From a virus: a stretch of 54,689 nucleotides of DNA. The translations under genes were made by a program, and so were the position numbers. Positions 8,208-8,277 of this stretch are shown piece by piece (the stretch's first letter is position 1; each line of letters begins with the position of its first letter). The notes beneath the pieces were generated by a model that saw only the letters and a list, made by a program, of their open reading frames with translations, was not told the origin of the DNA and did not search any database. Location: positions 1 to 54,689 of IMG/VR virus record IMGVR_UViG_3300008113_000294. One strand, written 5' to 3'.

Positions 8208-8277
8208 CGCGGGGCGCACTGGGCGGCGCATCCGGTTCATACCCGGATTGATTACGGTTCGATTCCGTACCCCGCAA
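8208..8277 (+). tRNA. Initiator-like tRNA-Met (anticodon CAT) with a shortened D arm
   Basis: The acceptor is CGCGGGG (8208-8214) against CCCCGCA (8270-8276), giving the C1-A72 mismatch that marks bacterial initiator tRNA, with A73 then CC but no encoded final A. The anticodon arm TCCGG-TTCATAC-CCGGA (8231-8247) carries CAT at 8238-8240. The variable loop is TTGAT, and the T arm is TACGG-TTCGATT-CCGTA (8253-8269). Only 16 bases separate the acceptor from the anticodon stem, so the D arm is short (CGC/GCG) and no T8 is present. It may be a real initiator mimic or a decayed copy. Confidence 0.75.

Follow-up and report, generated by a model that had tools for sequence, protein, structure and literature searches.

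The locus and its genomic setting

The window, by which we mean the whole stretch of DNA analysed, is a virus record of 54,689 bases from IMG/VR, classed as linear. It begins within a head-morphogenesis gene, and a portal gene was not found among the window proteins scanned; for these two reasons, the record gives the impression of a nearly complete genome that has been opened. On its plus strand, at 8208–8277, lies an initiator-like tRNA(CAU) gene of 70 nt, counted to the discriminator base A73, which is recognised by ARAGORN and by Rfam and is present as further copies in two contigs (L004 and L010). ARAGORN called a tRNA-Met(cat) at 8208–8279 (+), and the Rfam tRNA model RF00005 matched 8209–8276 at 37 bits, above its cut-off of 29 bits (E = 1.1e-6 on the local stretch).

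The gene shares the strand of the head genes and is situated between small open reading frames (ORFs) and a protease-like gene. A consensus scan placed two weak candidate signals upstream of it: a terminator-like hairpin of nine pairs with a T tail (7571–7596, +) and a sigma-70-like promoter (TTGACA-16-TATATT, 11/12; 7611–7638, +) that might mark the start of the tRNA unit, promoter-like matches being no commoner in the window than in shuffles. Next come a 62-aa ORF of PHROG 2555, a family without assigned function (7661–7849, +), and a 61-aa ORF of no family (7853–8038, +), which directly precedes the intergenic region holding the tRNA. Directly downstream of the tRNA is a 181-aa ORF without a PHROGs or Pfam family (8294–8839, +), and further on is the prohead protease-like gene (Peptidase_S78_2, with a ChaB N-terminal part; 9405–10217, +). 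The head-morphogenesis and protease genes are separated by about 8 kb of small ORFs (700–9400), most of them without a known family.

The window capsid (PHROG 1005) is 46% identical to the capsid of the Roseobacter phages RDJL, and the terminase is approximately 42% identical to that of a Paracoccus phage. On the basis of these similarities, an alphaproteobacterial host is our guess. The terminase large subunit itself is read in two overlapping frames (52444–53415 and 53324–53923, spanning 52444–53923), either through a frameshift or through a sequencing error.

A blastn search with 5.5 kb around the tRNA gene gave no match in the phage collection. None of 80 capsid relatives (approximately 46–55% identical) has a tRNA in the stretches searched, which in 32 cases extend 4 kb or more upstream of the capsid gene; on this count, we rejected the idea that a tRNA in the head cluster is common to all relatives. 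When the whole records of eleven relatives were searched for tRNAs, only one (that of L222) contained any. The window tRNA gene is accessory. One contig with a capsid fragment approximately 45% identical to that of the window, L099, has a CAT tRNA (2385–2460) upstream of the same protease homologue, with the D stem GCGC/GCGC. The 5′ acceptor strand of this L099 tRNA contains an apparent extra C.

The window encodes a second CAT tRNA on the minus strand (40565–40639; ARAGORN; Rfam, 60.8 bits), which went unmentioned in an earlier reading of this DNA made from the sequence alone (hereafter, the sequence-only reading). It has the anticodon loop CTCATAA, a paired U1-A72, an encoded CCA, a normal D arm and a C27·U43 mismatch in the anticodon stem. 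It is more likely an elongator tRNA (Met or Ile2) than an initiator.

Structure of the window tRNA

The 5′ acceptor strand, CGCGGGG (8208–8214, +), places C1 opposite A72 and forms Watson–Crick pairs with its remaining six bases, as read from the sequence, the ARAGORN structure and the pair list; the 3′ acceptor strand is CCCCGCA (8270–8276, +), followed by the discriminator A73 (8277). The anticodon arm, TCCGG-TTCATAC-CCGGA (8231–8247, +), holds the loop TTCATAC at 8236–8242 (+) and the anticodon CAT at 8238–8240 (+), and the T arm is TACGG-TTCGATT-CCGTA (8253–8269, +). All 16 conventional stem pairs are Watson–Crick (six in the acceptor stem, at positions 2–7, five in the anticodon stem and five in the T stem), the T loop is intact, and A8230 and T8248 could form a sixth anticodon-stem pair. 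The feature is a genuine phage-encoded tRNA gene with an initiator-type acceptor stem and a CAU anticodon, as the sequence-only reading had it.

The 3′ tail, at 8278–8280 (+), is CCG where L004 has CCA: the tRNA of L004 ends in GCAACCA, and those of the window and L010 end in GCAACCG. Because the CCA tail is encoded in L004, the register of the tRNA (C1 opposite A72, then A73 and CCA) is fixed, and the mismatch, the acceptor strands and the loop that the sequence-only reading described are confirmed in that register. L004 derives from a different metagenome and is approximately 97% identical to the window overall; as all 72 nt of tRNA sequence recur in both it and L010, assembly error is ruled out. 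The flanks of the three copies are nearly identical as well, and their identity therefore says little about selection.

Between the acceptor and anticodon stems are 16 nt (8215–8230, +), the number given in the sequence-only reading, which took the D arm to be abnormal and truncated. The D side is indeed abnormal; it is not truncated. Folds and the Rfam alignment show a D hairpin that is largely present, as CGC/GCG around ACTGGGCG followed by CA, or as GCGC/GCGC with G8214 shared, and pairwise alignment puts a three-base deletion at the junction of the acceptor and D stems. When 109 other phage CAT tRNAs were aligned pairwise with the window tRNA, the best match was L110, which shares with it the anticodon loop, an unpaired 1:72, A73, the acceptor and the T arm and has the D stem GCGC/GCGC. 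Their alignment has a single 3-nt gap, at the acceptor/D junction, opposite the TA linker and a G of L110, so that the window tRNA lacks U8, A9 and one G relative to L110. U8 is a base conserved in nearly all tRNAs. The simplest history would be that a tRNA with a normal D arm lost these three bases. Phage CAT tRNAs with TTCATAC and A72 mostly have 18–20 nt between the acceptor and anticodon stems, compared with 16 in the window, and it is this deletion, together with the altered anticodon loop, that is unusual about the window gene.

Comparison with bacterial initiator tRNA

The acceptor-end features that serve formylation are C1×A72, G2:C71 and C3:G70, an unpaired 1:72 being the hallmark of formylated initiators (PMC7949028). 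The window tRNA has all three. Compared with bacterial tRNA-fMet (CGCGGGG...CTCATAA...CCCCGCAACCA), its acceptor stem is identical, C1·A72 included, and it also has A73, the CAU anticodon, a normal T arm and G:C at 30:40 and 31:39 of the anticodon stem. It differs in having C29:G41 for G29:C41, TTCATAC for CTCATAA, a D stem made of G:C pairs (folds and pair list) without A11:U24, and an acceptor/D junction that is 3 nt shorter.

Position 29:41 is variable in the phage TTCATAC/A72 set too, being G:C in 39 of 110 sequences among the matches listed, and CTCATAACCTGA, with U41, occurs in many Pseudomonadota matches to the CTCATAA initiator pattern. Because G29:C41 and A11:U24 were looked for and are absent, we do not file the window tRNA as a canonical tRNA-fMet; its sequence suggests an initiator-like tRNA. 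It has the features of phage initiator-like CAT tRNAs, namely CAU, TTCATAC, A72 and A73, an unpaired 1:72 and G30:C40.

Initiator-like tRNAs in phages and in bacterial genomes

IMG/VR was searched with a pattern describing the 3′ half of the tRNA (the TTCATAC loop, a normal T arm and GCAACCA). The loop, A72 and A73 are set by this pattern and do not count as evidence; the mismatch, G30:C40 and A11:U24 lie outside it. At least 120 IMG/VR contigs match, with 110 distinct sequences among the matches listed. The sequence-only reading had called phage-encoded initiator tRNAs uncommon, an impression that this one pattern by itself contradicts.

Among these 110 sequences (distinct, from the matches listed), position 1 opposite A72 is C in 45, A in 23, T in 22 and G in 20; thus, 1:72 is unpaired in 88 (80%). 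G30:C40 is nearly invariant (107/110 among the matches listed), and A11:U24 is found in 51 of 96. Non-CAT tRNAs with A72 from the same loci have T1 in 8/10 cases and an unpaired 1:72 in 2/10 (Fisher p = 5e-4 versus the CAT set). As the unpaired 1:72 is frequent in the CAT set and rare among non-CAT tRNAs with A72, it is a property of these phage CAT tRNAs. The window gene appears to be one of a broad group of phage CAU tRNAs in which 1:72 is unpaired or weak opposite A72, and phage-encoded start-tRNAs of a similar kind appear to be common in environmental phages. Three phage CAT tRNAs with the CGCGGGG acceptor (L007, 46–132; L008, 10424–10510; L009, 3391–3476) have long variable arms resembling those of Leu or Ser tRNAs.

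Bacterial sampling covered Pseudomonadota, Alphaproteobacteria and Bacillota, and absence from bacteria is meant here within these three sets. The TTCATAC pattern with A72 occurs in none of 249 Pseudomonadota genomes, of which 170 contain a match to the same pattern with CTCATAA; the short-D form with the CGCGGGG acceptor is likewise absent from all 249. With the CCA left free in the TTCATAC pattern for the scans of Alphaproteobacteria and Bacillota, TTCATAC with A72 was found in 1 of 142 alphaproteobacterial genomes and in none of 149 Bacillota genomes. The single alphaproteobacterial match adjoins portal, neck, head–tail adaptor and capsid genes, the capsid belonging to PHROG 1005, as does that of the window, and it reads as a probable prophage.

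Short D regions among phage tRNAs

A scan for short forms returned 19 contigs, of which two represent further copies of the window tRNA. These contigs and earlier matches include a clear mini-D architecture, consisting of one linker base, a D stem of 4 bp, a loop of 3–4 nt with GG, three bases and the anticodon stem. In nine aligned sequences, the mini D stem is paired in 36/36 cells, with changes on both sides at three of the four pairs; non-fitting or misaligned sequences were left out of the alignment, which therefore speaks to the existence of the fold and not to its frequency. The covariation score of this stem was reached by no shuffle, and the scores of the whole cloverleaf behaved likewise.

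Mini-D phage tRNAs have 15–16 nt between the acceptor and anticodon stems and an initiator-like acceptor, as in the window, but they have one linker base, a covarying 4-bp stem, a 3–4 nt loop and 3 nt after it, whereas the window has a larger loop without a linker. The window tRNA was accordingly rejected as a mini-D form, its best parse being CGC-ACTGGGCG-GCG with no linker. An annotated phage CAT tRNA with a short D arm is the tRNA-Met of the Campylobacter phage Fletchervirus F355 (L022); unlike the window tRNA, it has a paired G1:C72 and keeps the TA linker.

D regions of at most 16 nt occur in 8/214 CAT and 10/698 other phage tRNAs (p = 0.05). Their presence in non-CAT phage tRNAs weakens the notion that short D regions are a speciality of initiators and suggests that phage tRNAs in general tend towards D-region reduction, with at most a mild enrichment among those with CAT. 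Several loci deserve separate mention. Four contigs (L184, L196, L199 and L177) carry CGCGGGG CAT tRNAs with only 14 nt between the stems and almost no D arm, and ARAGORN missed those of L196, L199 and L177. In Alicyclobacillus phage KKP_3916 (L020), a CAT tRNA at 125–199 that is missing from the annotation has a D region of 16 nt, and short or mini D arms are present in Ile, Ala, Gly, Trp and Asp tRNAs of tRNA-rich phages (L153, L166 and other loci). Most mini-D forms are missed by the Rfam tRNA model at its cut-off, and most are found by ARAGORN; annotation that rests on this cut-off will undercount mini-D tRNAs.

Proposed role and alternatives

With somewhat better than even confidence, we propose that the window gene encodes a phage initiator-type tRNA, expressed with the late genes, that supplies or protects the start-tRNA and lost three bases within its lineage. 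The tRNA would be transcribed from the late-gene strand along with the head genes, trimmed by the host and given its CCA tail. Host MetRS could charge it via CAU and A73, formylation could proceed via the acceptor end (C1·A72, G2:C71 and C3:G70), and G30:C40 and G31:C39 would permit use in the P site, so that an initiator would be supplied during late infection. The loop, changed at positions 32 and 38 on either side of the anticodon, could escape host nucleases that cut the anticodon loop of initiators. On the assumption that no part of an initiator is under less constraint than its D side, the deletion would be tolerated. That the window copy is still functional we regard as fairly probable.

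Anticodon-loop changes in phage tRNAs have been put forward as a defence against the tRNA nucleases of the host, and the tRNAs in question have altered bases flanking the anticodon, as in the window (PMC10264068). In enteric bacteria, tRNA-fMet is cut by VapC (work cited in PMC10264068 and PMC12482277), and where it is a VapC target, phages are reported in general not to encode it (PMC10264068), whereas the window phage encodes a tRNA of the initiator type.

The proposal is favoured by C1·A72 in a fixed register, the formylation features, the intact stem pairs, the statistics of the phage set, the bacterial absence, the position of the L099 tRNA upstream of the protease and the single-gap alignment with L110. 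Against it stand the lack of G29:C41 and A11:U24, the loss of U8, the CCG tail in the window and L010, three copies too similar to show selection, and the 80 capsid relatives without a tRNA. Some of these points feed its main rival, which is a copy in decay: a once functional phage initiator-type tRNA, hit by the 3-nt deletion and, within some of its lineage, by the change from CCA to CCG, that is drifting towards loss. The deletion removes the conserved U8, the Rfam score is 37 bits versus 60.8 for the phage's other tRNA, two of the three copies have the CCG tail, and the gene is missing from the capsid relatives searched. All the same, decay would have spared 16/16 stem pairs and the T loop, and 72 nt are identical in three copies; equally short D regions occur in phage tRNAs of other contigs, some with covarying D stems, and many tRNAs lack an encoded CCA. 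We consider decay a real possibility, though a doubtful one.

A role in elongation (as tRNA-Met, or as Ile2 once modified with lysidine), with the first-base mismatch a chance event, would fit the TTCATAC loop and the C29:G41 stem, which are unlike those of canonical initiators, and the absence of A11:U24; TTCATAC is also the loop of the elongator tRNA-Met of B. subtilis. It is nevertheless improbable given the contrast in unpaired 1:72 with A72 between CAT and other tRNAs and the near-invariance of G30:C40 (both among the matches listed), and the elongator role is available to the phage's second CAT tRNA, in which 1:72 is paired. More improbable still is an attachment-site remnant, a fragment of host tRNA-fMet acquired by integration; the sequence-only reading had suggested that a decayed copy might mark an attachment or transfer event. 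Prophages integrating at tRNA-fMet would be expected to place initiator sequences near locus ends, and 33 of the 112 CTCATAA initiator matches listed in IMG/VR do lie within 200 nt of one; the window gene, however, has phage genes on both sides within the genome, the larger window proteins scanned include no recognised integrase, and the tRNA body and anticodon loop are unlike those of the bacterial initiators sampled. A host-identical tRNA segment beside an integrase was not seen, with the sampled bacterial initiators, from which the loop is absent, standing in for the host genome. Lastly, the RNA might have no part in translation and serve, for example, as bait for nucleases or modification enzymes that act on tRNAs. 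Intact stems combined with changes in the anticodon loop and D side would suit such a decoy, and anticodon-loop changes in phage tRNAs have been discussed (PMC10264068); yet the acceptor end retains MetRS and formylation features that a decoy does not need, and we give this explanation hardly any weight.

Significance

Beyond this gene, we tentatively entertain a broader idea, which we would not call likely: that many phages possess their own phage-specific initiator tRNAs, with loop changes absent from sampled bacterial initiators and a freely remodelled D side, that take over or protect initiation, and that the window tRNA is an extreme form working without the U8-A9 linker. Should phages commonly encode initiator-type tRNAs, and should these depart from bacterial ones at the positions beside the anticodon, the long-standing question of what purpose phage tRNAs serve would become testable on a single RNA, with supply at the start codon set against evasion of nucleases whose target is the host initiator. 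The window gene, for its part, illustrates how much reduction an initiator might undergo on its D side.
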